From Ricordea florida (lineage: Eukaryota; Cnidaria; Anthozoa; Corallimorpharia; Ricordeidae): a DNA stretch of 64,000 nt. Positions 3,601 to 24,481 of the stretch are shown here, in pieces (position 1 is the stretch's first letter; every line of letters begins with the position of its first letter). The stretch is taken from the NCBI GenBank assembly GCA_949710005.1, contig OX453281.1, positions 17,016,379 to 17,080,378 of the forward strand. Direction: 5' to 3'. A program made the position numbers and the translations under genes. Below the pieces are notes generated by a model. It saw nothing but the letters and a program-made list of their open reading frames with translations. It searched no databases and had not been told where the DNA came from.

Positions 3601-3649
3601 AATCTCGAGAAGTCTTTCTCTCACTTGAAACCATAGTAACGCTACAACT

Positions 3650-4036
3650 TTATGCCTTCTCTTTGTTTTTTACAACGTCAGTGCGTTTCATTTCTTTGCG
3701 AAAATCAATAAGTTGACCAACTGTAAGTGCTTGGTTGGAATTAGAGAGAATCGAATGCGTCGGCTTTTCTCTTTGCTCAAGAAGTCTTATATAATCACGA
3801 TCCATCCCAAGTGTCTCGGCCAGGCTCCGGAAATCGTCGAAGAAATCGCGCTTATAGTCGAGCATAGTGAAAAACTTTGGAGTAAACAGGGAAAGGAAGA
3901 TCTTTCGCTGATACAGAACGCTTTTGACAACTTTCCATCTGCCGCGGATCAGCTGTTGGTACATCGCAGTTACCGGTACCAAACGAAAGCATCTGAGAAC
4001 CTTCACTGTTCTGTGAACGTGGAAACTTTGCGCCTT
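3650..4036 (-). CDS. Exon 8, Ser/Gln-rich linker and fourth death domain, frameshifted
   Basis: The acceptor TTGTCCGTTCCAG|AAGGC continues exon 7 in phase 1 and gives a polar linker (EGAKFPRSQNSEGSQ and on) ending VYSKVFHYARL and a stop at 3854-3852. Exactly there another frame takes over with DYKRDFFDDF, RSLAETLGMDRDYIRLLEQ, LTVGQLIDFRKEMKRTDVV and a stop at 3652-3650, a clear death domain. A one-base insertion near 3852-3865 best explains the switch. It could be a real mutation, a polymorphism or an assembly error. An unseen short intron is the alternative. This domain is closer to UNC5/MyD88-type death domains by eye than exons 2-4 are, but the subclass is not certain. Confidence 0.6.
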   Translation of the reverse strand, partial: KAQSFHVHRTVKVLRCFRLVPVTAMYQQLIRGRWKVVKSVLYQRKIFLSLFTPKFFTMLDYKRDFFDDFRSLAETLGMDRDYIRLLEQREKPTHSILSNSNQALTVGQLIDFRKEMKRTDVVKNKEKA

Positions 4037-7000
4037 CTGGAACGGACAATAACATTGCCATTTCAGAAATGAAAGAGAGATCACTACACTGTACAAAGTT
4101 TATCTGTTTTCTCCACAAAAAGGGAGCACTGGTAAAACGGCGAGGAAAGAGAACGCAAATCACAAGAAAAATGGATGGCGAGTGAAAAAGTAAATAGACT
4201 TCGACCACCTCGTGCCGCCTATTGTCAACACGAAATACAGTGTTCCATCATAGATCAAACACCAAGGAAGAAGCTAAAAATACGAAGCGCAAAGTATTTT
4301 CGGTGAAATTTCAGGTGTTTTCTATGTGATGAGACACAAGTATAAAGTATTTGAAACAGTTTTTCAAACCAAATGACAGTAGAAAGAGAAGGCGTAAAAG
4401 AAGCCGTGTTTCAACAAATATCCAACCAAGTCACAGTGCTTGATTTTCATTCTCTTTCACTTACGCATTACCAACGACCCAGCTACTTCCCTCTGCCGAT
4501 AGCGCGATTGCCAGATGACGTTAAAATAACAAATGAAAAGACCTTAAACTGCCCCCCACCCTCAATTTTTTTCTATTTATTTCAACAAGAATACATAATT
4601 TGGTGACGATTAAAAAAAGAAATGAGTAAATCCGTCAAATCCTCTCGAATCTATGAAGGTTTGAATTTGTAATTTTCTGGTTCCCGGCCGCGTGAAAGGA
4701 GGTCTGAAACCTAATGTAGTTGTGATGTCAGCGGGGGAAGTAGATTTGTTCGATTTGAGACGCTTGTGCTATCGGCTTGTTTTCGTCCGAAGTTTCTGCC
4801 CCTGAATCTCGTTAATTTTACCTTCTGGCACAGAAATCATTTAAGACCACAACAAAATGTCATCAAGAAATACAGATTCGCAAGATTCCTTCGACTCCGA
4901 GGACTCTGATGTCTGTTCTCTCTCTCGGAGCAAGACATCGAAAACGAACATGGTGATTTGAAAAAAAACGAACATGGTGATTTAAGAGACTACAAGGCCA
5001 CATAAAAGTACAAAGTAACCACACAGCAGCTCCTGTAACACCAAGAACTACAATGAGGCAACGTTCACACTATAATCCACTTTGGATCCGGTATAAAATT
5101 TGCACGGATGGGCCTTCCGTTCACATTGTAGCTGCTATCCGGTATCAGGTCATGTACCGTCTATCCGTGCAAGTTTTGTAGCTGCTCCAGGAGAAGATAG
5201 AGTTTTGGATCCATAATGGTCTCAAGTTGAGCCGGCACAATATGAACAGCTCAGTTCGGTTACGGTTTCGTCGTTTCGAATTCTGCGCATGGGAAACCAA
5301 ACCGCTGTCTTCTAGCGATTGTGGACGGGTATACCGGAAACATATGAAAATACGAAAACCGCTTTGGTGTGAACAGGTGTAAAACTTGCACGGATTCAAA
5401 CTGCACCTGCACGGATCTACTCTGTACCGATATAGTGATCGTTCAGTAAGACCGTAGCCTAATAAAAAGACAAACATAACGAAACAACAGCTTATGTAAC
5501 ACCAAAAATGACACTGCACGACACCCACATGAAAATACAAATATAACCTAACAAAAGCTGTTTTAACATCAAGAATGACACTAAACAATCCTCAAAGAGC
5601 ACACATGACCCTTAAAGCCCACGCGGCCGGAGCTTATCCCGGTTTCAATAGCATGAAGCACCTGGGAGTATTATTACTACCCCCTGGATGGGATGTTAGT
5701 CCGACGCAGGGTTACCCCCAGCTTACACCGCCAGTACCCATTTATACACGTGCAATCAGCGAAAAAATTACTTGACACATTGTGTTTGAACAATTCTTTT
5801 TAAGTGTAAAATACCCATGCTATTTGTACCACGCTCTAAATGAGTGCAAAATACCCCTCCCCATTCAATGTTCTCTGTTTGTAGCTAAACAACCCGCGAA
5901 ACATTGTTTTTGGGGGAAGGGAGGAAATTGGGCTTCCTAGGAATGCAGAAAGGGAGAACAATCGCATAATAAGGGGATAGAAATGATCGAAGTGTCAACA
6001 ATTTTGTCGCCGATTGTGGGTGGAGAGGGACTGTGTGGAGTTAAATGTCTTGTATAAGGAAACAGCACAGTGAAATCACCAAGGCTCCAACTCCGGACAT
6101 ACTACTGAGGCTCCACTAACCAAACATACCATAACAACAACTTCTGCAACGCCAAAAAAAAAATGCAAGACAATATCTATATGACAATACAAGTGTGACC
6201 AAACAATAACACCAAAAGACACTAAACAATATCAATATGACAATAAAAACGCAACCAAACAATAGCTTCTGTAACACCAAAAGACACTTAACAATATCAA
6301 TATGACAATAAAAACGTAACCAAACAATAGCTTCTGTAACACCAAAAGACACTTAACAATATCAATATGACAATAAAAACGTAACCAAACAATAACCTCT
6401 TTAACACCAAGAAAAGACAATTAAGAATAACCACGAGATTACAAACGTAATGAAGCAATGGCTTCTTTAGCACCACTTAAACTCACTAAAGAGGATTAAT
6501 GCCCTTACCAGGATTAACCCGATGAAGACTAACATAGTGTTCTTCATGGACGTGTCCAAGCACCAGGGGGTTGCCGCTGTGCATAGAGATTTCTGGATCA
6601 ATAAAGACGTCCTTGTGGTTGGGAATACTGCTGACCACACGAATAGAAACGCTAAAACAGTTAGCCGCTGCAATGAGAACAATTTGGTCGCCCCAGGTTC
6701 CCTCACTCTTTAACTTTCCTAAATATTCAGACCATGATGAGGCACTGACAACAAAGTCCATCAGATCTGTCCCGTCAGCCTGCGATAAGAACGATAAAGA
6801 CATTATTAAACTACCTATCAAAGAGATATTAAAAATGTTGATATGAAACAAATGGTGACGCATCGATGGGCACAAAAATGGTTGATAAGGTAATTTGACC
6901 AGAATACAGAAGATGGTAACGTTTTGAGCCTCACTGCGTGGTTTAATCCGCAAATGAAAACGTTTAAACCACACTGTATAGTAAAAGACAGTACCACAGT

Positions 7001-10000
7001 ACCAAAAAAGGAAACGGAAACGGAACGGTACCAGTCTTACTCACTTGCAGAGGGTGAGACGAAAATCAAAAAATCAGCTTGTATTGTACTAGCCCGAAGC
7101 TCTGAGGTGGTAGCCCGAAATTAATATATTCAACAAAGACAATAAAATTTATTTACTGGGCAAGATACATGCTTATTAATAATGTGGAGCATAGATCAAC
7201 TAATTCAACAGTACTTATATAGAAATGCTCGATTTAATGAATGCTTAATCGTTGCAGTTACAACAGACTTTGTATCAACATTTGAACATGAGCGAGAATT
7301 CCAAAGCTAAAAGACCATAATACAGACTACAGCTGATAACATACTTCTGTGTGCTGCAAAGCCATTGTCATTGTCATTGCTGCAAAGCCACGTACTCTAA
7401 AAATAGTTCTACTTTTGAAGACCATAAGTCGCAAATAACTCAGTACCAAATGGAAACTTGTCGTGGAGTAATATTTTACTCAAACACAGACTAGAAATTA
7501 AACCAAAAAATAAAAAAAACCTTCGAATGTGTTCGCTCCTCCAACGCTGTTTACACTCAACGCCAATCGGTCGAAAATTTACGAAATCATAACACAGCAA
7601 AGTTGAAATTTTTCCGAAGGCCATAAGAGCTATGATCGATCGATCAATTAAAATAGTACACTAGTCTAATTAGAAGTTTTTCGGATCGAAATTCAATGAA
7701 GTAAATCTCTTCCAAGCTCTTGGAGAAGTGTGAGAAAGAATATAACATCTTGCCCGCCCGCCTTGCCCGTCGGGCAACCCGTGATCTTAAGACGCTAGCC
7801 CGAAGAATCATTCCACTAGCCCCGGGCTATCGGACAGCACTTTTGTCGCGCCCTGCTTGCAGCTAGAAGCTGAATTGCGGAGGAACCAGAGGGTGAGATC
7901 GGACATCAGCATAAAGAAGGTGCCTCAGTCCATAGATGATCTCAACCCACCCACCCAGACCAATGACAGCACAAGTCAGCTAGACCATTACACCGGGAAC
8001 ACGCCCTACTCTTTTCGAGCAGTGCCATGTGTTCTTTTACGTCCCACATTTACGAATCTAGTATAAAGAGTTGTGAGACGGGGCCTACGGTTTATCGTCC
8101 TAAGATTAGAAAGTCTAACCATATGAAGATGTCATTACCAAGCACTTTCTCCTCAATTATTTTAAGACCCTGAGTGTTGGTCCGGCTGGGGTTTGAACCC
8201 GCGACCTCCCGCACGCTAGTCCAGTGCTCTACCAACTAAGCTAACCGGTGGGCGGTCAACAGTACAGTACTGTTCAGTAGCTTTCCAAAGAATGGTCACA
8301 CTGCATGGTTTGATCCACAGATGAAAAAGTTAGAACCACACTGTATAATAAAACAAACAGTACCACAGTACAGCACTGTTCAGTAGCTTTACAAAGAATG
8401 GTCACACTGCATGGTTTGATCCACAGAGGAAAAAGTTAGAACCACACTGTATAATAAAACAAACAGTACCACAGTACAGTACTGTTCAGTAGCTTTCCAA
8501 AGAATGGTCACACTGCATGGTTTGATCCACAGAGGAAAAAGTTAGAACCACACTGTATAATAAAACAAACAGTACCACAGTACAGTACTGTTCAGTAGCT
8601 TTCCAAAGAATGGTCACACTGCATGGTTTGATCCATAGATGAAAAAGATAGAACCACACTGTATAATAAAACAAACAGTACCACAGTACAGCACTGTTCA
8701 GTAGCTTTCCAAAGAATGGTCACACTGCATGGTTTGATCCAAAAATGAAAAAGGTAGAACCACACTGTATAATAAAACAAACAGTACCACAGTACAGTAC
8801 TGTTCAGTAGCTTTCCAAAGAATGGTCACACTGCATGGTTTGATCCAAAGATGAAAAAGATAGAACCACACTGTATAATAAAACAAACAGTACCACAGTA
8901 CAGCACTGTTCAGTAGCTTTCCAAAGAATGGTCACACTGCATGGTTTGATCCAAAGATGAAAAAGATAGAACCACACTGTATAGTAAAACAAACAGTACC
9001 ACAGTACAGTACTGTTCAGTAGCTTTACAAAGAATGGTCACACTGTATGGTTTGATCCAAAGATGAAAAAGATAGAACCACACTGTATAATAAAACAAAC
9101 AGTACCACAGTACGGTACTGTTCAGTCACACCGGGCCCACAGATGACAAAAAGCTGCATTGTGATGTCTTCAAAAATGGCGCTGGAAATCAAGGTGTTCG
9201 AGAAGAGACTGGGGCAGAGTTATGAAGCCTATAAATAATGGGCCCTCCTGCATTCTGGGAGATCTGTAGTGCTTCATTCAGCGAAAAAGATGGCAGCTTG
9301 TTTCCTGAGCTTTCCGCACATACCAAATATGCCATGCTTTTTATTAGAAAACTCGCTCCACCAAAGCGCATTCTTCGAGGTCTAATGGCGTCGTGTTTGC
9401 CGGCGTTGTAATGCGAAGTTTTCGGCTTGGAAAGAATTTAACAGTGTTCAAAATAACACCACTTCAAAACGAAATTTTGCATCTCTGACATCTGGGTAAG
9501 AATCGTATCGTTTTTGTTTTGCTGAATTTTTGTTTCTATGGCTGTTATATCATATTGAAGTTGGCTCGGATATTGCAGGAGAAGTCCACCTCTGGGTGTT
9601 GGGAATTTTGTCCTTTTTGAAAGAAAAGTCGACAAAGTATTATCCACATAGGCGACTCGATCAGTCCTCGCATGACAGCCTGCAATCCTTGGACTGTGCA
9701 AGTAATAATAGATTCTCCTGCGGACGTTTTGAGCTGGCAGCATCATGCCACACACCAAGAACAGACGATTCGATGTTAATGCCTTTATGAAGACCCGAAA
9801 GGAAGCGAGGGAGAGGGCAGTACAAGAGTGTACAAGTTTGCAAGGAGAAATTAACAGAAACACGAGGAAAATTAATAGACTAAAATCGAAGGTTTGTGGA
9901 ATGTTTGCATTTATGTTTTTAATAGTTGCACTGCAATGCACTTTGTTTAAACTTAAATTACTTTTTTAAGCAAACTATAAGGTATGCGTGAAGACACACA

Positions 10001-13000
10001 TGCAATTAATGATAAATATTTCTATAAATGCTATACATCAACTGCCACTGCATTCATGAGCAAAACAGCCCCCATGACTAGTCTCAGGAACCAAATTCCA
10101 GTCCCAACAACTAGATTTTTCTACAAATGTGTTCTTTTTGTTTTTTGTCGGAATGCTAGCTAGTTTCCTGTCTTCAGAATGCACTTTCGAGGGGCCTTCC
10201 TGGATAAAATTCTCAGGGTACCCTCTGACAAGGAGGTGTGTTTTGAAGACAGATATCAGTGTTAATTCTTTCTTTAAATAATGTTCTGGAAGAGTTAAGT
10301 TCAGAGAAGTCTTAGGGCCTCTCCTTTGCTAAAGCCTTGTATTATTCCTGATGGGTGGCACATGGAAAAGATCTTGTACTGAAAAGCTTCACTTGGCTTG
10401 AAGTGAGTGTACACATCAAGCACATACTCAGTAAGAAATCTCTCGCCTTTGTAAACAGCAGTATTCAAGAAATTGGTCTCTGTTTCAGATATTTCAGATG
10501 CTAGGTGGACCCAGGGCACATGGTGACTAATGTCAACCTTTTTTGCCATGCATTCCTCTTTAAATAAAAGCAAAATCCCCCATGTTGACATTGTGAAACA
10601 TGTCAATCTACTGTTTTCAATCTTCTGTTTATAAGAAATTTAATATACTAGAAATTTTGGAGCAATTGCAGGCTATCCAGCCCACTTCTTTGGATGTGTT
10701 GGCTGAGGAATAACACTGTAGGAGCTATTATTTTCAGTGAAAACAAGTACATGTAAGTGGGCCAGGTATTCTGCAATTTAGCTGGAATTTCTTTTGAAAA
10801 TGTTTTGCTATAAAGAACAGCCTGTTAATAATATTCAAAAGTTACCACATTTGCATTTAAGAAATTTTATTAGAAAATTATATATTTCAAAATGTTTTTG
10901 TGAGAAATGTTATTCAAAAGTTAGCTTAATAATATTGAAAAGTGAGCACATTTGTATTTTAGGAATGTTATTGGAAAATATATTTGAAAATGTTTTGCTG
11001 GAAATTATATTCAAGAGTTAGCACATTTGTATTTTATGACGAACCATAATGTGCATGTTTGTAAAACTATTGCAATAAACGTTAAACCTGGTTTAAACTT
11101 ATGCATCGACTGTAGTCTGATTCCTGCCATCTTACAACAATAACAATGCCCAGGGTGGGGACTTTCATATAAAAGTGACAGGGGGTGCTTGACTTACATC
11201 TCAGAGGTCAAAAATGCGGTTTTGATACCTCTTAAGGTGTTCAGTTTCAAAAGGTCCCAAGTTGTGGCTTTCACGGTACGGGCGAGAGTAGACATGAAAA
11301 GTTTCACAACACTGTATTTTAACTTTCAAAAGTGTATCCATACACATTTGTAAACTTGTAGTAGCACTTCAGCAACACGTGCCCTTTCCTGAAGTAAGAC
11401 ACTAAACGGCTTTTGGGCAGTCACAATAACCCTTGCGTTTCCTTTCCTGGGGCCTTTGCTTTTCTTTGAAAAATACTCAAGAACTGATTCTCTGGGGATG
11501 TGGCAAAGTCGATACAAATCTCTCACGACTCGATTCTCCTGTGTGTAAACAATACAATCTACGGGTGGGCTTTCTGAATAGGTGACACCATACCGTGAGG
11601 TTGCCTTCTTAACACTCTCCAATATGAAACAAAAAACTTCCGCAGGCAAATCTCTTGTAACTTACTCAGTCCAAGGATCACGGGCTGTCATGCGAGGACT
11701 GAGTCGCCTATGCAACGTTTTAAGCCAGAGGTTGACTTTTCCTGCGATAATCGAGCCAACTTCAATTATCGAATGTCGAACTCTTTCAATCGGATTTTGA
11801 TCACTTCGATGCTTTTCGAATAACGTGGATAACACTTCCTCGACTTCTATTTCAAAAAGGACAAAATTTCTAACATGATCACGCAGAGGAATTAGAGCTC
11901 TCGTGGCTGCACGGATTTCTTCCTTGTCCGCCATTTTGAAAATCTATACTTTTGCAACTCATACCGCTGGCTAAATAGGAACTACATGCGGGCGCCAAAG
12001 TGCAGTTTGGAGGCGTGCGCTGGCCCAGCGTGAGTAGCTTTCCAAATAATGGTCACATTGCCTGGTTTGATCGACAGATGAAAAAGATAGAACCACACTG
12101 TATAATAAAACAAACAGTACCACAGTACAGTACTGTTCAGTAGCTTTCCAAAGAATGGTCACATTGCCTGGTTTGATCGACAGATGAAAAAGATAGAACC
12201 ACACTGTATAATAAAACAAACAGTACCACAGTACAGTACTGTTCAGTAGCTTTCCAAAGAATGGTCACACTGCATGGTTTGATCCTCAGATGAAAAAGTT
12301 AGAACCACACTGTATAGTAAAATAAACAGTACCACAGTACAGTACTGTTCAGTAGCTTTCCAAAGAAAGGTCACATTGCCTGGTTTGATGTAATAGATCA
12401 AAAACGAGTGCGAGTTTTTCATCAGGGGTTCCAAACACCGAGAAACAGATGAAAGCACGACGCCGAAGGCGGAGTGCTTTTATTGTTTCTCGGTGTTTGG
12501 AACCCCTGATGAAAAACGAAGCACGAGTTTTTGAGCTGGCTTCTCAAAGTAGCATGAGAATTTTTTTCGAAGAATAGGTAATTAGTAGGCGTGCTCAATA
12601 GGCTATTGTCTGTTTTTTATTCATATGGTAAATGAAATGAATCTTTTATATGCGGCCATGTGGGCAAGTTTTAAAGGTTGAATTTTTAATAAATTAACAT
12701 TATGCCGCGTTTTGGAGATCGAGTGCAGATCAGAACGTTTTCGAGTTCCAAAAACCTCTTCTCAAGAAAATGTTTTGGTGAATGATGCTGTTCCAGTTTC
12801 AACTAAGTATAAAAACAAGTGGGCTGTGAACATTTTTGCCGAATGGCAGAGGTTGAGAGAGGTTAAAGTTCCGGTATTAGATTGTGGCGGTCTCTTCAAG
12901 GACTACGATTTACACAATGTTACCGCTGTGAGTGTAGATATTGCTGGAATGGACGCTCTGTCGCTGAACTATTGGTTGTCAAAATTTGTGATGGAGGTAG

Positions 13001-16000
13001 CTAAAAAGTCCGGTGAAAGATACCCTCCGAAGTCTGTTTATGGTATCATTTGTGCCCTCAAGCGTTATTTGGAGGAGAAAAATGGATCAGAAGCTTTGAA
13101 TCCTCTGGACGCTAGTGACAAAAGGTACTTGACAACTTTTAGACCGAATTGGTTAGTAATTTAAAATGCACTGTTTCAGGACTTTAATTTTGTGTGTTAT
13201 TTTTTGAAGGTTTGTCCTTTTCCGACGTTGCTTAGATGCCGAGATGAAGAATGGCGTTCGAGAAGGGCTTCACATTAAGTGTAAGATAGAGGAAAAGGAG
13301 TTTGTGAGCTGAGCGAGCAAGAAGAAGCAGTATTCTGGCAAAAGAAATTGCTGGAAACTACATCAGCTAAGTCGTTATTGAACACGATCTATTTCTACAA
13401 CGGAAAAGTTTTTGGGTTGCGGGGGGGAGATCACAGAAATATTGTTGTAAACAACTTTGAAATTGGTCCAAATTTTATTAAGTTTGAAGAAAATGCCTCT
13501 AAAACTTATGATGGAGGTCTTTGTGATCTAAAGTATGTGCCGCGAGTGGTCAAGCACGTTTGTCATTCTATTGAGGAAAAGCACGAGCCGTGCCGCCTTG
13601 TTGAGATATTCAGATTGTATGTAGGGTTAGTTGAGACTCATGCAAAGGAAGTTACTGCATTTTACTTTAAGCCATCAAAAACTAGGTTCGCATTCGATAA
13701 AGCGCCCGTAGGCATCAACAGCTTGAACAAGATTTTGCCTGACATGTGCGACGCGGCAGGTTTTAAACGCAAAACCGCTCACAGTTTGCGCGTTACTTGT
13801 GTTTCCTCCCTGTTCAATTCTGGGGTTGAAGAAAAATTGATTCGCGAAAGGTCGGGACATCGTTCTAATGCATTGTTGCAGTACGAAAAGCCTACAGAAG
13901 AAAATGTGTCTTAAGTTTCAAAGATCCTAGGTCCAAGTGTTGTTAGTACAACTACATGTTTTACCACAGAGAAACAGGATCAATCTTAAACGGATGTTGT
14001 TTTCCAGAAAGGAAAATTCAAAAACTGTACAATTAATGTAACGATGTCTAAGAAGGAATAATATGTTGCTGTATTGTTGTTGTAAGCAATGACTTGAGCG
14101 GGAAAAATGCTGTATTTAGAATTATAATTAAGACTGATTAAAATTCAAGTTTCTTGACCAGTGTCTTGATCAGTTTTTGAACTAATCTACCGTGTGTTGA
14201 TCGGTATGTTCATTGGGTATCAACATACATGCACCTGACCCAATTGATGCGAGCTGATTGGGTCATCAGCTCATGAATAATTAATGAGTTTGAGAACGAC
14301 ATATGAAAAAGGTAGAACCACACTGTATAGTAAAACAAACAGTACCACAGTACAGTACTGTTCAGTAGCTTTCCAAAGAAAGGTCACATTGCATGGTTTG
14401 ATCGACAGATGAAAAAGGTAGAACCACACTGTATAGTAAAATAAACAGTACCAGTACAGTACTGTTCAGTACCTTTACAAAGAATGGTCACACTGCATGG
14501 TTTGATCCAAAGATGAAAACGTTTGAACCACACTGTATCGTAAAACAAACAGTACCACAGTACAGTACTGTTCAGTAGCTTTTCAAAGAATGGTCACACT
14601 GCATGGTTTGATCCACAGTTAAAAAGTTAGAACCACACTGTATAGTAAAACAAACAGTACCACAGTAGAGTACTGTTCAGTAGCTTTACAAAGAATGGTC
14701 ACACTGCATGGTTTGATCCACAGTTAAAAAGTTAGAACCACACTGTATAGTAAAACAAACAGTACCACAGTAGAGTACTGTTCAGTAGCCTTACAAAGAA
14801 TGGTCACACTGCATGGTTTGATCCACAGTTAAAAAGTTAGAACCACACTGTATAGTAAAACACACAGCACCACAGTACAGTATTTCTCAAAGAATGGTCA
14901 CACTGCTAAAACTGAAGATTGTAATCAGGTCAGTATGTCATACATTACATTTACACTGGATTCTTGCAAAATTAAGAAATGGAAATGGTGGCAATCCTAT
15001 GTTTTAAGGGGAAGCATGAGCGGATTGCACAGTATCTTACCAGCTTGCGGTGTTTCTCAAGAAACTCAACCAACGTTCTCCGTAGCTCGGAATGTGTCAA
15101 CATGATTCCTTTGACGAGCTTCAGCTGATCGGCCAGTGCGTAAAACATGCAGTCTCCATTCCTAGGGTTGTCACTAATTACAAAGCCTTTTTTTCTGGCG
15201 ATGTCTTCCAGATCACTTCTCAAATCAGTTTTCCGGCGAAGCTGATCAGTTTCAATCTGAAGCTCTTTCCGATCGCTGCACACTTTCCTAACTGGAGAGA
15301 AAAAACACAAAGGTGTTTTATGTTGTTGATGCATTTCTTTTTCATTTGATTTTTTTTTATTTTTGACGCCCTATCGAAAGCGTGGCGGATGTCGCGTCAA
15401 GATATAAGATGTTACCATGTTACGCTGGCCAACTCTTACCAAGATCCCTAAAATGGGATCAGGGTACAACTTAACTGAGATCACATAAAAATCCAAGAAA
15501 CATTCATAGAAAATTATTTCGAGGATCAACGAAAGTTAGACCAACGTGCAGCTGTGGACTTTGGGCAGTTTACACTTCATTCTCCCAGATGTGATCTTCA
15601 CCCAATTTCACTTTATATTATAGAGTCAAAACGTCAATACACTGTTAAACAAAGATAAGATTGTTAACCCTTTAAGTCCCAGTAGTGACCAGCATCCAAT
15701 TTCGCATTACAATACTCACTGTTCATCAACCATTCATGTTATGAGAATAACGAAAATGATCACCAAATAAGAGTTGTATTGATAGTTAAACAAATTCTCT
15801 TCACTAGTACTATAACAAATATATGAGAATGGTTTGGAGATTAAAGGCTCCTTCGAGCTACCTCATGGTCTGTGGTAATTATTCCAGGAAGTGCTGTCGT
15901 TTTGTGCACTCTTGCCACGACTGATCGATTACTCGTCGTCCAAATTGGAGACATCGTCTCTTTTAAAACCCATTTCTTTCCCCTCGAGCATTCTTGAACA

Positions 16001-19000
16001 CATTTCCTGTTCGTTCGCGAGTTCTTCAAAAGTGTATTTTGATCAAAGATGGAGCGAAAGGAACGAAAACCCGCCTTGACAATCTCTGCGTCGGGCTCGA
16101 CATAACAGACGCCATTTTAAAAACATGTGCTGCCGCTTTGTCTCACACCCTCCCCCGACATATGTGAACATAAAATAATTGCACGACTTTGTGAACAGAA
16201 CCAAACCTAATAGGGGAGACAGGGGAGAACCTGTTTAATTCACATTTTTAATTAAAATGCAGATTTAATGCATAAATTAATTGTTTAACGGGAATGGAGT
16301 GACCAATCCAACCATCACTGACGTACATACCATGAGGTAAAAATGAATAATGATATTGGGGCTTAAAGGTTTAAACAAGTTGATAAAGTATAGTTATGCC
16401 ACCGTACGGTAAAAAGAGGGTGCTCACGTTTCGAACGTCAGACTGTCGCTCTGTTCAAAACGCCCGATCAAGAGAATATAAAGAACAAGTGAGGGGTTCA
16501 TGGTCTCGGTCAATGAAAACGCGAAGGAAGAACTCGGTCAAAATGCAGCCATCCTCACCTCACGCTTGGACAATGACGCATATTTATTGATCACTTAATA
16601 CGGGGAATTGCTACTCCAAACTTGAAAGTAAAAGCTTGTTATCTTACTTGGAGTAGATACTGCTGTAGTTGGTAACTGCTGAAGTGCGGCGCCATGTTCG
16701 AAGCCAACACCCTCCTCAAAATCGTCTTCCAATTTAACTGCAAGGAAATAAATAAGAAAATCAAATAATTCCAGGTGCTATTTGCTACCTTATCAGTGTT
16801 GATACTTTCTCGGGTGTTCTCGAAAAATTCGGGTGTAATGCACTCCATACATCTTCTCTAACAAAAGCGAACTAACTTAATTAAACTTAATTAGCACGAT
16901 TTTTATACTCCATAAAAGTAGTACAGAAGAAAACCAGACGATGACAGCGGAAGTGAGATGTTTTATAACCTTTTAAATCCTCTATTTCGCCTCACCCCTC
17001 CCCCCTTCCCTGCACCACTCCCTGGTGGGATAAGGCAAAACGATACATTCACGGCCAAGCAGTTCAGTTTGTGACGTCATCGCACCATTGATTCCGGTAA
17101 GACAGTGGGTGGCCGCTGGTCGGCTCTCCTGTTGGTTCATTCGGTAATTTTGTATTTTCGGAGTTTCGTGATTTTTGTAGCATACACGAGAACGAAAAAA
17201 ATACTCGAATCTACGAAAACAATAACCTCCAAATACGGTAAACTTATGATGCTGCATTTAGCTAAACCAATCAAAAGGGACCTGAAGGGGTAAAATGACA
17301 ATCAGGATTGGCCGGATTTTGTCCTGGGAAAATGGGATTGAAGTCGTTGAGACTTGGATCAGTCACTGGGAAGATTTTTCCCGAACTCTGCCAGTGAGAA
17401 AGGAATTTGAGCACTGGGAAGTGGGATGTCGAAAACCGATGGGCCACCCCCAATGGTACCTTGAGTAAATACGCCAGCCGAGTGGCTTGTTAGAGGATTT
17501 ACTGTTTTTATACAGATCACAAGACAAGTTACAGGACGCATAGTGAAAATGTTTCACGCTATGGATGTTTCTAGGGATAGGCTATGGATAGGCTTTCTAT
17601 ATATATAGGATATATATATATATTCTATATAGGATAGGCTTTCTCTGGCTATGGATGTTTCTAGGGATTTATGGTTTGTTGGCTGTATCTTTCAAAGCTC
17701 ACTTCTTATGTCGCCCAGCTCTTTTCCAATTCTTATACTCTCTCTTAAGCCACCTCTCCCCCCTTACCCAACCCACCCCGCCCCCGACCCTCTAATTACC
17801 CACTCCTTTAAGTACTGTAAATAAATAAGCCACTCGCATGGCTTAATATAGGATTTACGGTATGTCGTTGGTGCAACTCCGCCATTGTGACCTCTCAGCG
17901 GCAATGTTCCACTTGTGGCGTGCCTCACCACGTGCTAACGTACTAACACACCCAAGCAAAATGCCTTTCATATTAGACCCGGATGGATTCAAGAGGCATT
18001 TTGAAATCAAAGCTTTATTTTCACTCAAGCCGAACCCCTCTCTTCTCTGGTAAACCGTAAAAAATAAGCAAAGAAGCCTTTTTATGATCATTATGATGAT
18101 TTTTATAATTAGCTTCAGATTCAGCATCGGGATCAGCATTAGTAATAGTAACGTTGTTTTTATTACTACTCTCTCAGGACATCTAGAAACAATCACACCT
18201 ACCTTTCTTCACTTCATCGGTTACCAGCTCCACCACATCAAGGCGCTCAATATCTTTCAGTTTGACCAACAATTCTTCCACAGTACAGAAAGGTTTATAG
18301 GTTGCCAGCCACTCAAACAAGAGCTTTGTTGGGCTTTTTGCTCCTCCTTTAGATGTATCAAACGTGTCGTACACTTCATGCGGAATCTTAAGTCTGAAGG
18401 CCAAATTGCGCCAGTTTTTTACAGCTCTCATCTCTTTATCGAGCCGGTTGCTGATCTCGTCCAGTAGTTCCGAGTCTGCCTTCAGCTTATGCCGTACAAA
18501 TGCGCTGTCTGTACAGCAAAAGAAAACAAACACACTTAACCCATTTAATAGTAGTTATGGCTCGGTGAGCCAAGCCAAATAAATCCGACTTTCCCGACGA
18601 TTGGCTACTCAACTGGCCAAGATAGAGCCATCTTGTCATGAATGGCTTCACAAGCGGCAAAGATGAAGCTATCTTGTCTTTGTTTGGCTACCCAAGTAGC
18701 CAGAATGGCGCTGTCAAGCCTGTGATTGGCCATTCAAGCGGCAAAGATAGAACTACAGTACTTTGCCTTTGACTGGCTACCCTAATGGCAAAGATGGACA
18801 CATGCTACCTGCGATTGGCCACCAAAGGACCCAAGATTGAGCTATTTTCACTGTGATTTGCTAACCAACTGACAAAGATGAAGCTACATTTGAACAACAA
18901 CTGCGAGTCCTAGGTTCAAACAACGTACAAACCATAAATAATCTCTACTCTCTATGCGTCGCTTTGGATCAATAAATCCCATCATTGTTTGACTGAAGGT

Positions 19001-22000
19001 GTGAAACTAATTCATTGTATAATTGCTTCAGAACATTGCTTTAAAACGTTTAATACTGGCGGGGTACGGAATCCACATATATAGATTTCAAGTTCGTGGA
19101 TCAGTAACATAAATCCTCTGAAAGGCAAACGTTCAGTTTACGAATAAGATATGTAGGAGTGAGTTTCTAAAGAAACTGGTTCTGCGTCTGAGAAAAACTG
19201 AAACACGCCCAGACAAAACAGTTGATAATGACAGTTTTACCAGCGTAAAATTGAAGGGGAGCTGACGTTTAGAAAGTTAACCCTTCGTCGGAGTGAAAGG
19301 TACGAATGTGGTATGTGTTTAGTTTGTATGTTTTTGTCTGATATGAATGTCTGAGCGGTTAGGAGTTACGTCCGAGGTTGCGCAGGCCACTAACTATAAA
19401 CTACCAACCCTCTCTTTGGATCTTAGCACTCGACCAATTTCCTTTTAAAACGTTTACCCGCTACCTACCATCCACGTTGTGCTTGTCCAAGATTCGAACC
19501 ACATCATTCCTTTCCATGGCCGTAAAGTGATCTCGCAACTGTCCAATGGTTAAGTTAGGAAAGCCATCGGCAGTTTCCAAGTAACGGAACAACATAGCAG
19601 TCGGTCCGTGGTGAGGAAGGCCAAACTGATCTAACTTAGTTTTGGGAATACGAAAGTATGCACCAAGTTTTCTCCAGTTACCAATTGAACGAGAATCCAT
19701 GTCGAGTTTCGATGAAAGTAGTGCAATGAATCTTGCATCGCTAAAAAACAGGTCGCTCGTTTTCATTGTGCCGTCATCAATTCCTAACACAAGAAAATGT
19801 CCGATGTTAGCAATACCTGGAAGCAACAATCAATGAACACAAACAAGAATTCTAGTCATCTATCAAACGCACAATACGGTGAAAGGTGGATTTTTCGGCA
19901 ATGTCACAGACCAATTAGGAAAAGGAAAATCCACGTTCTCCCAATAGAGGTCGAACCCACGGCATTCCGATCACTAGTTCAGGCACTCTACCACATAGTT
20001 ACAGGAGACTCGTGGGTGCAATGCCTTAAACTAGCTTCAAGGGGCAAACATCCTGCATACTGCTAGGATTTGAAAAGTGAGAGTGAAAGGGTTTTCGAGT
20101 TCGCCCGTGTCTATGCCGAAAAATTCATGTTTCACAAATTCCCCAGGCTCAAAATCTACCATCTTTGTTAGTTCTCGAAATACGGTGTTTCCTCAACAAA
20201 AAGAGAGCTGAAAAACAACATGCAATGGAGTATTGCTAACGAGATTCGAGGATTGATTTCATACACCTGAGTTGTAGATATCTTTCCAACACGGGCAGAC
20301 ATTATGCACCTGCTCCTAGCTAGCACAAACGGCTGTGTAGCCCGGCTTGTAGAACGAGGTCACGGGTTCAGGGTCCGAAATTAACGTTTTCATAAGGGCG
20401 CCAACTGGCGACTAACCTGAAAATGTTGGTCGCCAGATGGAAGGGTTTGGTCACCAATAACAAGTGTTGGTTTTTCGCCTGCGATATCCGTATTGGGAGA
20501 AGCCGCTGAAACAATATCCCGCCAGGTAAATATGGCGATCGTAAAATCAGTCGTCGCTTCGTTTTACTTCAATTGTCCATGGGAGCTTTATGTTTTCTTT
20601 TTTAAAAGCCCTTTTACCTTGGAATTTCAAATGCCGTGGGAACAAAAGGTTAGTCGCCTGCTGGCGACCAGGTTCTAAAATTCTGGTCGCCAACACCTGA
20701 TTTTTGGTTGCATTGGCGACCAGTCAGTCGCAATTTCGACCGTGCCGGGTTCGAAACCCGTTCGAAGCCGTTCTGTCTCGCTTTTTTTTTTTTGGGGGGG
20801 GGGGGGAGGGTAAAATGCAATTGCTATAATTTGCGAAAATAAGGGTCCAGTCTTACAGTGTCACAACTCCAACCATGGTCACCCAAACAAATTTTCACAC
20901 AAATTATCCAGTCCTGACACAGGCGGCCCAAGCTCATTTCATGAACGCGGACGTGACTCTTTCTTGCGAGCGGTGTTGTGTTACAAACGGTTATTTACAA
21001 AGGTTTGTAGGGTATGTAAACGGTTTTTCTTGAAAGAGGGAAAAATGTAATTTTTTAAAATAAAATCAACTTAAATTTTGGTGTTCCACTGCTAAAAGAA
21101 AGACTTCTTTTAGCAGTGGAACACCAAAATAGCGCTAACTCGCCGAAAACGCTTCAAGACGGCCTGAGACGCGAGAAAACAACAAAGAATACAACAAAGC
21201 AATAAGGTAAGTTGATTTTATTTTAAAAAATTACATTTTTCCCTCTTTCAAGAAAAACCGTTTACATACCCTACAAACCTTTGTAAATAACCGTTTGTAA
21301 CACAACACCGCTCGCAAGAAAGAGTCACGTCCGCGTTCATGAAATGAGCTTGGGCCGCCTGTGGTCCCGATCGAATATAGAAAACGAAATCTCTACAAAT
21401 GTTTTATAGTGTATTTCGCTTTAAATGTATATAATTTGTGCTACAACTGTACAAAACACATCAAGATTAAAAAAGAATCATCTTGGTAGGAAGAAACTCG
21501 CCACTTAATCTGCTGTTCAGCGTCAAAAACAGGCATTCAAAATTAATAACAATAATAATCTTTATTGAGATGACTTTTTCATAAAAAAGTATGGTTTTCA
21601 AAAAGGATCTCATTAAAAAAAATACAAAATACAAAATACACACAATACGCAAAAACATTAAAAAGCTAAGATATGTAAAAAACTATTAAAATATACAAGA
21701 TATTAAGTAAAATTCAATTTAGATTACAGATTTAAAAAGATTATGTTTAAAAATATTCAATTTGTATGGAAATGTATTTGCCTGGGAAGCCTTGGTTTGA
21801 GTAGTGACAACAACCTTAACACTAGTCGCCTTTATCTAACTCCCTTGTTTGGTACAAAGCAATCAGTCTGTTATATAACTACAGTATAACGAGGGTATCG
21901 TACCTTCTTCTAAACTATGGATCAAATCATTGCGGTGCAAGACTCTTAGAGCAGTCTTGAGTCCGTCAACTGTTAAATCAGGATTCCAGGCGACCAAGAA

Positions 22001-22394
22001 GCTAAAAAGATCCTCAGTGGGGCTTTGTTCAGTATACAAATCAAACTCTCTGGTCATCTCTGATGGCACGTCAAGGACATAAGCCAAATGCTTCCAACAC
22101 TTGATAACTCGACTTTCTCGATCCAGATACTTTGAGAGCGTGTCCAGGAAAATACTATTGTTAGTAATGACTTGGCGTACTAACAATATCGCACCTAAAC
22201 AAACAAAGGATATTGATTAAATAAATAAATTAGGGTTTGTTTAACAATTAGTGATGAGTTCAAGATTTCCGTTGAATGGTAAATGATGAGGGCAAACCTC
22301 GAATCAATGCAGGGAAATCGAGAGCAAGTAATCTAATTCTTTTAATAAAAGTCTACTATTTTACTATAAATTTACCTGAAGAAGCAGCCGCCAT
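3650..22394 (-). CDS. Tandem death domain - OTU protease - death domain gene, 8 exons (gene-level entry)
   Basis: I join eight minus-strand exons: 22394-22376, 22194-21904, 19783-19469, 18508-18203, 16737-16648, 15291-15041, 6779-6509 and 4036-3650. Every boundary is GT-AG and phases agree throughout (1,1,1,1,1,0,1). The predicted protein of about 650 residues is MAAASSG, three death domains, a linker, a complete OTU fold with Cys and His catalytic residues, then a fourth death domain. Death domains form oligomeric signalling platforms (apoptosis, NF-kB); OTU proteases remove ubiquitin. A cytosolic regulator of ubiquitin-dependent innate or death signalling is therefore inferred. No signal peptide or membrane segment is seen. 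I do not recognise a named orthologue. The last exon has a frameshift, so this allele, or the assembly, may be defective. The joining is a prediction from splice signals only. Confidence 0.75.
5041..5455 (+). repeat. MITE-like inverted-end repeat inserted in minisatellite units
   Basis: The ends are imperfect inverted copies: AACGTTCACACTATAATC on the left, and the reverse complement of the right end reads AACGATCACTATATCGG. Copies of the 65-bp minisatellite lie immediately on both sides, which suggests that this unit inserted into an older repeat tract. It contains several GTTCACA-type motifs and repeated TTGCACGGAT blocks. No coding potential. Confidence 0.4.
6117..6480 (+). repeat. 65-bp minisatellite, with outlying copies near 4985-5040 and 5455-5590
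   Basis: About five to six units of 65 bp share AATATGACAATAAAAACG, CCAAACAATAGCTTC and GTAACACCAAAAGACAC. Two central units (about 6227-6356) are almost identical and the outer ones are diverged. More diverged copies occur at about 4985-5040 and 5455-5590, so the array once extended further and was broken by later insertions. Small minus-strand ORFs here are artefacts of the repetition. Confidence 0.8.
6509..6779 (-). CDS. Exon 7, C-terminal half of OTU domain with catalytic His
   Basis: A 271-bp exon (phase 0 to 1) between the acceptor TTCTTATCGCAG|GCTGA and the donor CCTG|GTAAGG. It reads ADGTDLMDFV, SWSEYLGKL, EGTWGDQIVLIAAANCF, IRVVSS and NPLVLGHVHEEHYVSLH. These are the second half of an OTU fold: the WGDxIxLxAxA strand-helix and the C-terminal His in EEHYVSL (His codon 6539-6537). 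It supplies exactly what exon 6 lacks, 8.26 kb away on the same strand and in matching phase. A 106-bp satellite and a Crypton lie in the intron between. Confidence 0.8.
6912..7005 (+). repeat. Isolated diverged unit of the 106-bp satellite
   Basis: The blocks TGGTTTAATCCGCAAATGAA, AACCACACTGTATAGTAAAA and CAGTACCACAGTACC match the 106-bp satellite unit found from 8258 onwards. The copy stands alone, 1.3 kb from the main array, and is more diverged than units inside it. Confidence 0.7.
7006..8061. other. Unannotated part of intron 6
   Basis: I see no gene. A GC-rich patch at about 7745-7850 carries repeated GCCCG and TAGCCCGA motifs, which also occur near 7090-7120, so a small unidentified repeat may be present. 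Confidence 0.3.
8062..8256 (-). mobile_element. tRNA-derived SINE
   Basis: Read on the minus strand from 8256, a tRNA-like head shows an A box (TTAGCTTAGTTGGTAGAGC) and a B box (GGGTTCAAACC). A body with ACTCAGGGTCTTAAAATAA, GTAATGACATCTTCATATGG and GACGATAAACCGTAGG follows. The body also occurs at 29240-29500, which identifies a family. This copy lacks the 3' TTA-rich tail. It abuts the left end of the 106-bp satellite. Confidence 0.75.
8258..9127 (+). repeat. 106-bp satellite, block 1 (about 8 units)
   Basis: Units of 106 bp repeat head to tail with few differences; each contains AGTAGCTTTCCAAAGAATGG, CACACTGCATGGTTTGATCC, a short (G)ATGAAAAAG block, AACCACACTGTATAATAAAA and CAGTACCACAGTACAGTACT. 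The last block is a near-palindrome centred on GTACAGTAC, so each unit can form a small hairpin. 106 is not a multiple of 3, and the 62-residue minus-strand ORFs that recur here are by-products. The array lies within intron 6 of the death-domain/OTU gene. Confidence 0.95.
9441..9970 (+). other. Scrambled partial copy of the 11662-11934 sequence, and a small ORF
   Basis: On the plus strand, blocks such as ATTGAAGTTGGCTCGG, ATTTTGTCCTTTTTGAAA and CAGTCCTCGCATGACAGCC reappear from the minus-strand ORF at 11934-11662, but in a different order. This points to rearrangement of a diverged paralogue. From about 9745 a basic open stretch (HTKNRRFDVNAFMKTRKEAR and on) runs into a possible splice donor near 9890. 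I do not recognise it. Confidence 0.35.
10301..10606 (-). pseudogene. Reverse transcriptase fragment, Penelope-related type
   Basis: The C-terminal two thirds read TNFLNTAVYKGERF, VLDVYTHFKPSEAFQYKIFS, CHPSGIIQGF and SKGEALRLL. This is the region after the catalytic palm in Penelope-like and related cnidarian RTs, where a 'YxKPTxTxQYxxFxSCHP' block precedes 'GEALRLLRTNS'. The fragment has no start, no palm and no endonuclease. It is minus strand inside the 2.9-kb insertion. Confidence 0.6.
11326..11934 (-). CDS. Unrecognised two-part ORF inside the satellite insertion
   Basis: Minus strand. An ATG in good context (AAAATGGCGGACAAGG) opens a 90-residue helical stretch (MADKEEIRAATRALIPLRDH and on) that reaches a stop at 11664-11662, right where GAG|TAAGTT or TGA|GTAAGT could be a splice donor. 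A second open frame of 107 residues begins about 10 bp later and ends at 11326, with VDCIVYTQENRVVRDLYRLC and a Lys/Arg-rich patch. They may be exons of one protein or a frameshifted ORF. I recognise no domain. A diverged copy of the first part lies at 9441-9790. Confidence 0.35.
12031..12389 (+). repeat. 106-bp satellite, block 2 (about 3.4 units)
   Basis: Same unit as block 1, with variants GGTCACATTGCCTGGTTTGA and GATCGACAGATGAAAAAG. The block is cut after GGTTTGAT at 12389, where the Crypton element starts. Confidence 0.9.
12398..12534 (+). repeat. Long hairpin at the left end of the Crypton
   Basis: Arms of about 60 bp face each other: TTTTTCATCAGGGGTTCCAA and ACACCGAGAAAC on the left, and their reverse complements on the right. 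The loop contains GCACGACGCCGAAGGCGGAG, itself palindromic. TCAAAAAC begins and GTTTTTGA ends the structure. It could be a Crypton terminal structure or a separate hairpin MITE. Confidence 0.8.
12712..13914 (+). pseudogene. Crypton tyrosine recombinase (DUF3504/KIAA1958-like), one intron, frameshifted
   Basis: Tyrosine recombinase that would excise and integrate the Crypton. Exon A (to 13151) has a helical SAM-like DNA-binding region: TKYKNKWAVNIFAEWQR, LSLNYWLSKFVMEVAKKSG, YPPKSVYGIICALKRYLEE. A 58-bp GT-AG intron (13152-13209) restores NW|FVLFRRCLDAEMKNG. In exon B the frame breaks near 13305-13312 (stop TGA at 13310), and one frame over reads LSEQEEAVFWQKKLL. Catalytic residues are intact afterwards: Arg in FGLRGGDH, HSLR, GHRS and the Tyr in LLQYEKP. 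The start is unclear, because the only nearby ATG (12702) is in another frame. A single deleted base explains the break. Confidence 0.8.
14297..14907 (+). repeat. 106-bp satellite, block 3 (about 6 units)
   Basis: Continuation of the array after the Crypton, with slightly shorter variants (GATCCACAGTTAAAAAG; AGTAGAGTACTG). It ends at AGAATGGTCACACTGC near 14907 and gives way to unique sequence about 130 bp before exon 6. Confidence 0.9.
15041..15291 (-). CDS. Exon 6, N-terminal half of OTU cysteine protease domain
   Basis: A 251-bp exon with the acceptor TTTTCTCTCCAG|TTAGG and the donor AAGCTG|GTAAGA. A charged helix (RKELQIETDQLRRKTDLRSD) leads into LEDIARKKGFVIS and then DNPRNGDCMFYALADQL, the OTU catalytic loop with Asp and the nucleophilic Cys (codon at 15151-15149). 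The block LTHSELRRTLVEFLEKH matches the following OTU helix. Known OTU enzymes hydrolyse ubiquitin isopeptide bonds. The domain is cut after the helix and must be completed by another exon; exon 7 fits in phase 0. Confidence 0.8.
15292..16647 (-). other. Intron 5 of the death-domain/OTU gene
   Basis: No recognised repeat or gene. A minus-strand ATG at 16115 opens a 29-residue ORF (MASVMSSPTQRLSRR and on), which could be an alternative first exon but has no fitting donor. Otherwise I see nothing. Confidence 0.35.
16648..16737 (-). CDS. Exon 5, acidic linker between death domains and OTU
   Basis: A 90-bp exon (30 codons, phase 1 to 1) between a strong acceptor (TATTTCCTTGCAG|TT) and a strong donor (CCAA|GTAAGAT). 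It encodes an acidic then Gln/Thr/Pro-rich stretch (KLEDDFEEGVGFEHGAALQQ and on). No domain is recognised. It is included because both splice sites are good and its phase links exon 4 to exon 6 exactly. Another small exon could lie on either side. Confidence 0.55.
16738..18202 (-). other. Intron 4 of the death-domain/OTU gene
   Basis: Contains a local duplication of ATGGATGTTTCTAGGGAT (about 17560 and 17651) around an AT-rich stretch (17600-17632). The rest shows no recognisable feature. Confidence 0.35.
18203..18508 (-). CDS. Exon 4, third death domain
   Basis: A 306-bp exon (102 codons, phase 1 to 1) with the acceptor TTTTGCTGTACAG|ACAGC and the donor AAAG|GTAGGT. It encodes LLDEISNRLDKEMRAVKNW, RNLAFRLKIPHEVYDTF, SPTKLLFEWLATYKP and TVEELLVKLKDIERLDVVE. 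The layout matches the two preceding exons position by position, so the three arose by exon duplication or repeated shuffling of a phase 1-1 module. Confidence 0.75.
18598..18895 (+). repeat. Degenerate tandem repeat of about 60 bp with ATTGGC boxes
   Basis: Five or so diverged units share GATTGGCTACCCAAG, GGCAAAGATG and AGCTATCTTGTC. Each carries an ATTGG (CCAAT on the other strand) core. It lies in intron 3, just upstream, in gene orientation, of exon 4. It is probably a decayed minisatellite; a regulatory role is only speculation. Confidence 0.65.
19215..19290 (-). repeat. Penelope-type terminal relic with decayed hammerhead core
   Basis: On the minus strand the sequence CCGACGAAGGGTTAAC, then CTAAACGTCAGC, matches the layout of hammerhead cores found in Penelope-like terminal repeats (CUGANGA, stem, GAAAC, GUC), with a substitution in each core strand. 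No coding part of the element is present nearby. Confidence 0.4.
19469..19783 (-). CDS. Exon 3, second death domain
   Basis: A 315-bp exon (105 codons, phase 1 to 1) between the acceptor TTCTTGTGTTAG|GAATT and the donor GATG|GTAGGT. It reads a short acidic lead, then FIALLSSKLDMDSRSIGNW, RKLGAYFRIPKTKLDQF, TAMLFRYLE and LTIGQLRDHFTAMERNDVV. The last block is a textbook death-domain end (T-x-x-x-L-x-x-x-L-x-x-x-x-R-x-D-x-x). It is clearly related to exons 2 and 4, though much diverged. Confidence 0.75.
19930..20040 (-). mobile_element. tRNA-derived SINE remnant
   Basis: The minus strand shows GTAACTATGTGGTAGAGTGC (A box) and CCGTGGGTTCGACC (B box) about 35 bp apart. Stem pairing is poor, so it is a SINE head rather than a functional tRNA gene. 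Confidence 0.5.
20300..20815 (+). mobile_element. tRNA-derived SINE interrupted by a 375-bp element
   Basis: A B box region (GAGGTCACGGGTTC) is followed by 375 bp of other sequence and then by a second CGGGTTCGAAACCCG, a short GC-rich piece and a T12/G13 homopolymer. The duplication of the B box core is best read as a target duplication of the insertion. Confidence 0.45.
20370..20744 (+). mobile_element. hAT-like non-autonomous element with GGTCGCCA subterminal motifs
   Basis: The 375-bp unit is flanked by ACGGGTTC and CCGGGTTC (7 of 8 match, the hAT target length). The ends are loosely inverted: AGGGTCCGAAATTAACG versus CACGGTCGAAATTGCGA. Inside are about six copies of GGTCGCCA or its reverse, as seen in transposase-binding subterminal regions. 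No transposase gene. The 61-residue ORF across it has no support. Confidence 0.45.
20919..21362 (+). mobile_element. Palindromic MITE with 156-bp inverted arms
   Basis: The arms 20919-21074 and 21207-21362 are almost perfect inverted copies beginning CACAGGCGGCCCAAGCTC. Near the left arm an internal perfect hairpin (about 21077-21132, TTGGTGTTCCACTGCTAAAA paired with its complement) adds a second structure. The flanks GTCCTGA and GTCCCGA may be a diverged target duplication. Located in intron 2. No coding capacity. Confidence 0.85.
21904..22194 (-). CDS. Exon 2, first death domain
   Basis: A 291-bp exon (97 codons, phase 1 to 1) bounded by the acceptor TTTGTTTAG|GTGCG and the donor GAAG|GTACGA. 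It encodes a helical domain with the death-domain pattern: FLDTLSKYLDRES, then IKCWKHLAYVLDVP (Trp-x2-Leu-Ala core), a middle helix with TEDLFSFLVAW, then LTVDGLKTALRVLHRNDLI, the signature final helices. One exon equals one domain, with symmetric phase, as in the next two exons. The domain mediates homotypic protein interaction. The call rests on pattern, not on a profile search. Confidence 0.7.
22376..22394 (-). CDS. Exon 1, start codon exon of death-domain/OTU gene
   Basis: On the minus strand an ATG in good context (AAAATGGCGGC) opens MAAASS plus one leftover base, followed by the donor G|GTAAAT. The next exon starts in matching phase after an acceptor only 181 bp away. I chose this start because it is the nearest ATG upstream of the first death domain and it splices in frame. 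No upstream coding exon is needed. Confidence 0.65.
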
Positions 22395-22911
22395 TTTGCT
22401 GACAGTCTTACAGTGTAAAGCTAGTTGATCTACACAAGGTTCAGATAACTAGGCACCAGCATACAGTAAAATCAATACAACCCATGCCTCATTCATCATG
22501 CAAGATACGTTATCCAAATTTTGATAATATCCCAGAACAGAGGTACAATTTCTTGCCATTCACGACAGAAAACTGAACACTTTGCCTGAAGTAATCATTA
22601 CCCTATCAAGTACAGTAATCCTGATTACCAAGCATGAGGCCAAGACGGCTGCATATCAGCCAAGTTCTTAGGTCAATAAAAATGCAAACAAGAACAAGAC
22701 CAATATGCAGCCATTTTGATCGGACAAGCTTGCTCAATAAAGGATTTATTACATGGCTATTTTGCTTCAGACAGGTATCTAAAATTCATGTCCCCAGAGC
22801 CATTAGGTAAAAAGTTCTGATTAAGGTACATGTATTTGCTTGCCAGTGAATTTTGAGGGGGATAGGGGTGGGGTATTCCACTAAAAGGAAATATGGTACT
22901 TCTGGTGTATA
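22395..22911. other. Upstream region of the death-domain/OTU gene
   Basis: Should contain the promoter if exon 1 is correct. I see no clear TATA box or other motif that I would defend. Confidence 0.3.
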
Positions 22912-23379: not shown

Positions 23380-24481
23380 AAAAACGTTAGATAAAGCAAG
23401 GACGGACAACTTCTGACGATAAAAAAGTTAAAAAGTTAAAAATTTAATAGAAAAAACGTTTCGGTCTTAGACCTTCGTCAGTTACAGGAGAAAAAGGACG
23501 GAAACTAAGTTTAAATACGGTTACAGTGTGGGAGATTACATACCGAAATGAAAAATACTATCGTGCTATTAATACATCGTGATTAATACAATACAGGGAA
23601 AAAAATGCAAAACGAGAAATACAATGCTGTACCATAAATTACGTCATACAGGGTGATAATTAATAGACCAAACGAAAAAGATACAATGCTGTGCATAAAT
23701 TACATTATAAAGCGGGATAATTGCAGAACTAGGTTAAATTCAACCTAAAAACTAAAATAGTTAAAATAGATAAAACGGACTCTTGCAATGCGGTAAATAT
23801 TACGGGAAAACTAGTTTACAAAGATATGCAGAAGAAACCTACGTTTACGCTGGACAGGGTTAATAACAAAATCCCAAATCGAGGCCTTTGGAGCATTAAA
23901 GGGTTGACAAACAACAAAATCCCTGGAGGGGCCCTTAAACAATAAGCTGTAATAAGATCCCAGGCAGGGCCTTTGAGCATACCTAACACCCAAAGAGCTG
24001 GCAAAATCCAAGAAAGGGCTTTTGGACTGCTTTATGGCGCAAACGCATATTTACACAAGAGAAAGTTAATTATAACAAATTCTGTTTTTGGAGTGAAATT
24101 CTTTTCTTTTATTTAAGCCATGGGGAGCCATAGAAAACAGTTGAGCACTCCAATAAGCCTCTTTCGTAATTAAAAACCTATCGATCTCGTCTAAGTCATT
24201 AGGGGCCTGCACCTGATCAATGCATTGGAATTCAAAATCATCCAAGGAGTGTGGAATTTTATTGAAATGTACTGCTACCTCACAAGTGGTTTTGTTTGTG
24301 AGCATAGCAGACTTGTGGTTACGAAACCTAACCCGAAAATCGGTGGTAGTTGATCCTACGTACTGTAAACGACATTTCTTGCAGGAAACTAAATAGATCA
24401 CGTTTTTAGAATCACAAGAAAGCCTTGAATGAATGGTGTATTTTCTGCACGTTCTAAAACTTAGAAATGATTTAGATTCAA
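23380..24481 (-). mobile_element. Inverted partial copy of Penelope-like element (left arm)
   Basis: Base by base the reverse complement of 25239-26340: 1102 bp on each side. The only difference I found is a pair of compensating one-base indels at the GTAATATTACC block. It contains the last 111 codons of the GIY-YIG domain (24401-24066) and the 3' non-coding region. Penelope-like elements often carry a truncated copy in inverted orientation at the 5' end, and this fits that arrangement. Confidence 0.9.

Follow-up and report, generated by a model that had tools for sequence, protein, structure and literature searches.

Death domains build the signalling complexes of cell death and immunity, and in animal inflammation death domains and OTU enzymes meet as separate proteins. 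A20 and OTULIN are OTU enzymes of NF-kB and death signalling, and neither protein is known to contain a death domain. Here, we examine a minus-strand gene of the corallimorpharian Ricordea florida (assembly GCA_949710005.1, contig OX453281.1, positions 17,016,379-17,080,378 of the forward strand; this entire stretch of 64,000 nucleotides (nt) is referred to as the window), which a preliminary description had read as coding for three death domains, an OTU protease and a fourth death domain in a single protein. Our analysis supports this order as that of a conserved coral protein, as judged from predicted sequences, and we favour, with fair confidence, the view that a coral gene coding for a death-domain scaffold with its own OTU has undergone segmental duplication and that the locus in the window is one of the copies. 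The coral OTU would, like A20 and OTULIN, be expected to function in death-domain signalling. Relative to UNC5B, MyD88, IRAK4, p75NTR and FADD, the coral protein is distinguished by the presence of four death domains and an enzyme domain in one chain. Titles and abstract openings from the literature linking death domains with OTUs or deubiquitinases do not describe such an architecture, which only suggests its absence from print.

The gene was rebuilt from the minus strand exon by exon, with Pfam profiles run on single and joined exons. Exon 1 (22376-22394) supplies the start codon at 22394 (MAAASS) and a GT donor in phase 1, and is conserved at a sister locus introduced below. Exons 2 (21904-22194), 3 (19469-19816) and 4 (18203-18508) encode the first three death domains (DD1, DD2 and DD3), with single-exon Pfam Death E-values of 5.4e-5, 7e-5 and 8.8e-7 and amino acid (aa) identities to the sister copy of 96.9%, 98.3% and 97.0%, respectively. 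The OTU domain is split between exon 6 (15041-15291; 91.6% aa identity to the sister), which carries the catalytic Cys codon at 15151-15149, and exon 7 (6509-6779; 91.1%), which carries the His codon at 6539-6537, both codons being read exactly where they had been placed. When the exons are joined, the Death profile matches in three stretches (E = 1.9e-18), followed by OTU (E = 6.3e-11; 8.2e-12 for exons 6 and 7 joined), and the last exon, encoding a fourth death domain (DD4), matches Death by itself (E = 1.3e-5), as each of the other three does singly. In terms of bit scores, Death (PF00531, cut-off 22.6) reaches 66.8 for DD1-3 and 25.7 for DD4, and OTU (PF02338, cut-off 23.3) reaches 46.2; both profiles thus match above their cut-offs, and the proposed succession of three death domains and an OTU is borne out.

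Exons 1-7 show GT-AG sites (donor only for exon 1), and the phases in which they are left are 1, 1, 1, 1, 1, 0 and 1. Of the eight exons in consistent phase that had been proposed, exons 1-4, 6 and 7 stand, while exon 5 is unmatched and exon 8 proves to be out of phase. The possible exon 5, a 90-nt linker (16648-16737), is doubtful and probably intronic: it has no counterpart in the sister locus, and no similar stretch occurs in four aligned relatives. We accordingly reject it as a conserved exon; as its length is 90 nt, skipping it leaves exons 4 and 6 in phase. The intron splitting the OTU domain (6780-15040) is swollen by repeats to 8.3 kb, as against 1.4 kb in the sister. Within it are tandem arrays of a 105-106-bp unit (8259-9126, 12033-12389 and 14306-14882), a unit also carried by the shorter sister intron. 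On the plus strand of the same intron (12682-13914), inspection by eye revealed open frames whose ending resembles that of a tyrosine recombinase (HSLRVTCVSSLFNSGVEEKLIRERSGHRSNALLQY), perhaps belonging to a mobile element of the Crypton or DIRS type.

Searches of 5.8 billion proteins, in each of which about 7,992 candidates were scored, recovered four relatives with the full order, a list that is a lower bound: P0001 (985 aa), P0002 (882 aa), P0004 (675 aa) and P0003 from Porites evermanni. On these sequences, the same design is present in one or more other corals. All four align along the whole order of three Death domains, OTU, linker and fourth Death domain with 46% identity; Pfam alone detects Death in two or three stretches and bDLD3 in three stretches of each. 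The alignment of four relatives over the entire order, together with the 91-98% exon-wise identity of the sister, argues that the architecture is not a product of chance. We also considered whether a death-domain gene and a neighbouring OTU gene had been joined by mistake. A long, repeat-bearing intron does separate the OTU halves, and P0003 itself probably carries a wrongly joined WD40 neighbour. Against this, the exon phases join, and P0001, P0002 and P0004 present the whole order in one uninterrupted open reading frame (ORF) of 675-985 aa on contigs whose longest representatives measure 3,217, 3,973 and 2,795 bases, respectively. In R. florida the gene spans ~11-19 kb. Contigs of 2.8-4.0 kb are too short for a gene with such introns and are most simply spliced transcripts; the source code of these three proteins, 'lgn', we take to denote assemblies of public reads. 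Thus, as far as contig sizes show, a single transcript for the whole order is supported in the relatives, and on account of the single ORFs we reject mistaken joining, to which we give next to no credence.

The WD40 tail of P0003, which we presume to be BUB3-like, was rejected as a part of the architecture: a separate WD40 exon, 89% identical to this tail over 38 aa, lies ~7 kb downstream of the sister copy, so that the tail is probably a fused neighbour. The pairing of a sister-type gene with a WD40 neighbour seems to be shared with Porites. P0001, P0002 and P0005 share the N-terminus MGNKxGKG, which could be an N-myristoylation signal; the gene model in the window is devoid of it.

The sister copy lies on the minus strand of the same contig (C10:16914935-16926906), offset by ~112 kb from the copy in the window, and its sequence is intact. 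The duplicated block in the window extends over 3625-22767 by blastn, with unaligned inserts in the introns; the main collinear blocks of at least 300 bp are 86-96% identical, with the highest values in the 5' half, and the individual exons for DD1-3 and OTU encode proteins that are 91-98% identical. The two copies differ at the last exon. In the window, a strong acceptor at 4036 (tgtccgttccag) opens, in the phase of exon 7, the best-supported form of exon 8 (3852-4036), comprising a linker with 81% identity to that of the sister, which ends as in the relatives (..PVYSKV), and the start of DD4, before an in-frame stop at 3852. The stretch coding for DD4 (~3877-3653) continues in a different frame (3650-3877, break near 3870). 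Compared to the sister, a T run in helix 1 of DD4 is longer by one base, and the last helix of DD4 shows an in-frame loss of 21 nt; two further indels of 3 and 6 nt in the linker preserve the frame. When the DD4 exon of the sister was used as a query against the whole assembly, it was recovered complete once (C10:16914963-16915364), while the window yielded two overlapping pieces in two frames; the remaining eight of the 11 matches were only 30-37% identical. A phase-consistent exon 8, as originally proposed, would need a weak acceptor at 4005 or 3930 (which of them was meant is a guess); we reject both, as they have a poor pyrimidine tract and add a peptide upstream of DD4 that is without homology in the sister or the relatives. 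Hence, the fourth death domain is confirmed by its profile match and its presence in all four relatives, but a full protein with four death domains is not supported for the window copy, in which DD4 is out of frame and shortened; its predicted product has at most three death domains and the OTU. This copy may be on its way to becoming a pseudogene or may code for a truncated regulator.

These lesions bear on whether the window copy is a functionless pseudogene, with the protein made from the sister alone, a possibility that we regard as an even prospect. Besides the frame break, the 21-nt loss and the repeat-swollen intron, the pattern of substitution leans the same way: the 23 aa differences from the sister comprise 11 derived in the window, five derived in the sister and seven not assignable, 11 of 16 assignable changes on the window branch being too few to conclude from. 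The pooled ratio of non-synonymous to synonymous divergence (dN/dS) is 0.40, a value also to be expected if constraint acted on the sister alone. It was calculated over 1,455 bp of DD1-3 and OTU coding sequence with 17.5 synonymous and 25.5 non-synonymous differences (dN 0.0228, dS 0.0573). By these small numbers the window copy looks less constrained than the sister. On the other hand, all its DD1-3 and OTU exons are open with intact splice sites, the pooled dN/dS is itself an argument against loss of function, and the single-base difference in the T run could be an assembly error, which would leave the 21-nt loss unexplained.

Among the death domains, DD4 resembles those of UNC5B, MyD88 and IRAK4, DD3 is weakly similar to those of p75NTR and FADD, and DD1 to that of p75NTR. 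The bDLD3 profile (PF20690) scores 65.1 bits summed over three domains, with 24.1, 26.0 and 24.9 bits for the single exons of DD1-3 against a cut-off of 27.1; bDLD3 is related to Death, and its name does not imply a bacterial origin. Across the genome we counted 134 six-frame Death matches, a lower bound, including further ones around the two C10 copies (C10 16.91-17.44 Mb) and a cluster at C12 5.15-5.21 Mb.

The OTU domain, in the structural model of a relative, adopts an OTUD-like fold; OTUD3, OTUD5 (DUBA), OTUD1 and yeast Otu2 lead the fold and sequence comparison and share with it the fold, the order of Cys and His and the size of the catalytic domain. Identity to these enzymes is ~17-25%, and the coral domain differs from them in lacking the usual acidic positions and in being joined to death domains. 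A20-like enzymes and OTULIN were absent among the 50 matches listed in the fold comparison, which is not evidence against kinship. PMC7396840 reports that the OTU acid usually lies two residues downstream of His, with A20-type enzymes having it ahead of Cys, and that its mutation can result in complete, intermediate or no loss of activity. The retention of Cys, His and the OTUD-like fold makes the proposed ubiquitin editing plausible, and deubiquitinase activity is predicted on that basis; with both usual acidic positions missing, the editing is unproven.

Several observations weigh against the explanation favoured here. The window has HYV at His, and thus Val two residues after it, as in 25 of 26 OTU segments (which all have Cys and His by construction), and reads N-G-D-C, with Asn three residues before Cys, a position at which none of 22 segments from this OTU subfamily has Asp. 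The model of the relative has a mean predicted local distance difference test (pLDDT) of 67.1 and a predicted template modelling score (pTM) of 0.38, and does not predict the domain arrangement; outside DD1-3, the six-helix fold of the death domain superfamily was recovered. The substituted acidic positions, given where that source locates the acid, raise the alternative that the OTU is a pseudo-enzyme that recognises ubiquitin, or a different modifier, but does not cleave it, and that it provides the scaffold with a sensor or docking module. We regard this as rather unlikely: Cys, His and the surrounding loops persist in widely differing fusions (all 22 segments selected by the Cys motif have the His); mutation of the acid can, in the cited account, leave activity unharmed; and at repeated long-ORF OTU loci of this genome the residue two after His is likewise not acidic (Val in five of seven, Ile and Ala in one each, with further Val elsewhere), so that its absence is not peculiar to the present gene. 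Another acidic residue may also lie close in space to the active site.

The best explanation is therefore, we think, probably a death-domain scaffold with its own OTU, trimming or reading ubiquitin on the complex that it joins. When intact, the protein would use its three N-terminal death domains, together with the C-terminal one, to assemble with partner proteins that also contain death domains. This would bring the OTU close to the ubiquitin chains formed on the complex; by trimming or binding them, it might set the strength of signalling. From the domain types we infer a role in a death pathway or an NF-kB-like one. A conserved coral protein with both elements would allow a scaffold to regulate its own ubiquitin signal and offers a defined protein for probing the uses of ubiquitin in cnidarian cell death and defence; its missing acidic residue sharply poses the biochemical question of whether the OTU is an enzyme or a reader of ubiquitin.

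The same OTU subfamily occurs in a range of other predicted proteins, among which fused gene models, as with P0003, are possible. In named corals, it is combined with LRR, Roc, COR and GT4 in varying order (P0010, P0011, P0017), and the order is two OTU-Death-TPR-NACHT in P0007 and COR-OTU-Death in P0009; further contexts are LRR-Roc (P0016), LRR-7TM (P0012) and NACHT-WD40 (P0024, from Acropora). Side cases are P0022 (Pecten maximus) and P0027 (Pinctada imbricata), bivalve fusions of OTU with a Mab-21 domain, which we take to be cGAS-like. The distribution of the subfamily is like that of a shuffled defence module, and its recurrence across several defence-like kinds of protein points to a shared output. 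Tentatively, and with somewhat less than even confidence, we propose that corals plug a single OTU subfamily, whose active site is non-canonical, as an output module into death-domain, NACHT-WD40, TPR-NACHT, LRR/Roc/COR/GT4 and LRR-7TM proteins, that many coral immune sensors thereby share ubiquitin control as their output, and that the triple-death-domain form is the adaptor of this module.

A parallel is offered by the GT4-conflict proteins and related immune fusion proteins of invertebrates (PF20706; PMC8195603), as in corals the same OTU subfamily stands behind GT4 with LRR, Roc and COR; the word OTU does not occur in the main text of that paper. The present gene, unlike those proteins, has no GT4, STAND or LRR part. 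Fifty of the 59 six-frame GT4-conflict matches in the genome fall on C11, and, using these, 12 of 18 OTU matches on C11 have one within 12 kb 5' on the same strand; both C10 copies are without such a nearby match. GT4-conflict exon arrays, many with OTU exons behind, are found at C11 22.3-25.6 Mb and 9.6-10.2 Mb. At all nine OTU loci fetched, four of which showed a GT4 match, the OTU was matched as two pieces, the first ending at query residue 81-83 and the second starting at residue 75-76 in six of the nine, as at the split in the window, or at 36-38, with overlap, in three. This pattern suits, but does not show, a spread of the OTU as a two-exon cassette.

Mobile elements also carry OTUs. 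PMC2836005 describes OTU-bearing Ginger1 and Helitron transposons in animals, Hydra included, and PMC9741609 reports that corals and anemones have VTD deubiquitinases, a family other than OTU, in fusion with a variety of protein regions, of which some may derive from transposons. In the R. florida genome, PF02338 has 148 six-frame matches, many with identical score and ORF length, and the OTU seems to ride on mobile elements; P0021 combines an integrase core with OTU. We built an OTU tree of 49 rows, into which 17 of 20 likely-repeat loci were entered (of the others, L042 had no match and L046 and L048 were of insufficient length), labelled mobile by inference from long single ORFs and repeated copies. 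These 17 rows form one side of a branch, apart from the subfamily of the present gene, with a support of 83/92 that is short of strong and with several long branches; the tree neither supports nor contradicts the idea that the coral OTUs descended directly from mobile elements. Two OTU paralogues at C10 17.37 and 17.85 Mb are the nearest rows to the window and sister copies in this tree; the 20 kb of sequence fetched around each contained no recognised death-domain exon, and no GT4 was seen beside them.

Elsewhere in the window, inspection by eye identified long, LINE-like reverse-transcriptase ORFs at 1356-3110 and 52215-54368 (both plus strand), an inverted pair of frames at 24066-25654 with a GIY-YIG-like stretch as in Penelope-like elements, and ORFs of 413 and 253 aa at 43632-45691 (minus strand) resembling a hAT-type transposase with a zinc-finger part. 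ARAGORN predicted a tRNA-Thr (ggt) at 60885-60957 on the plus strand.
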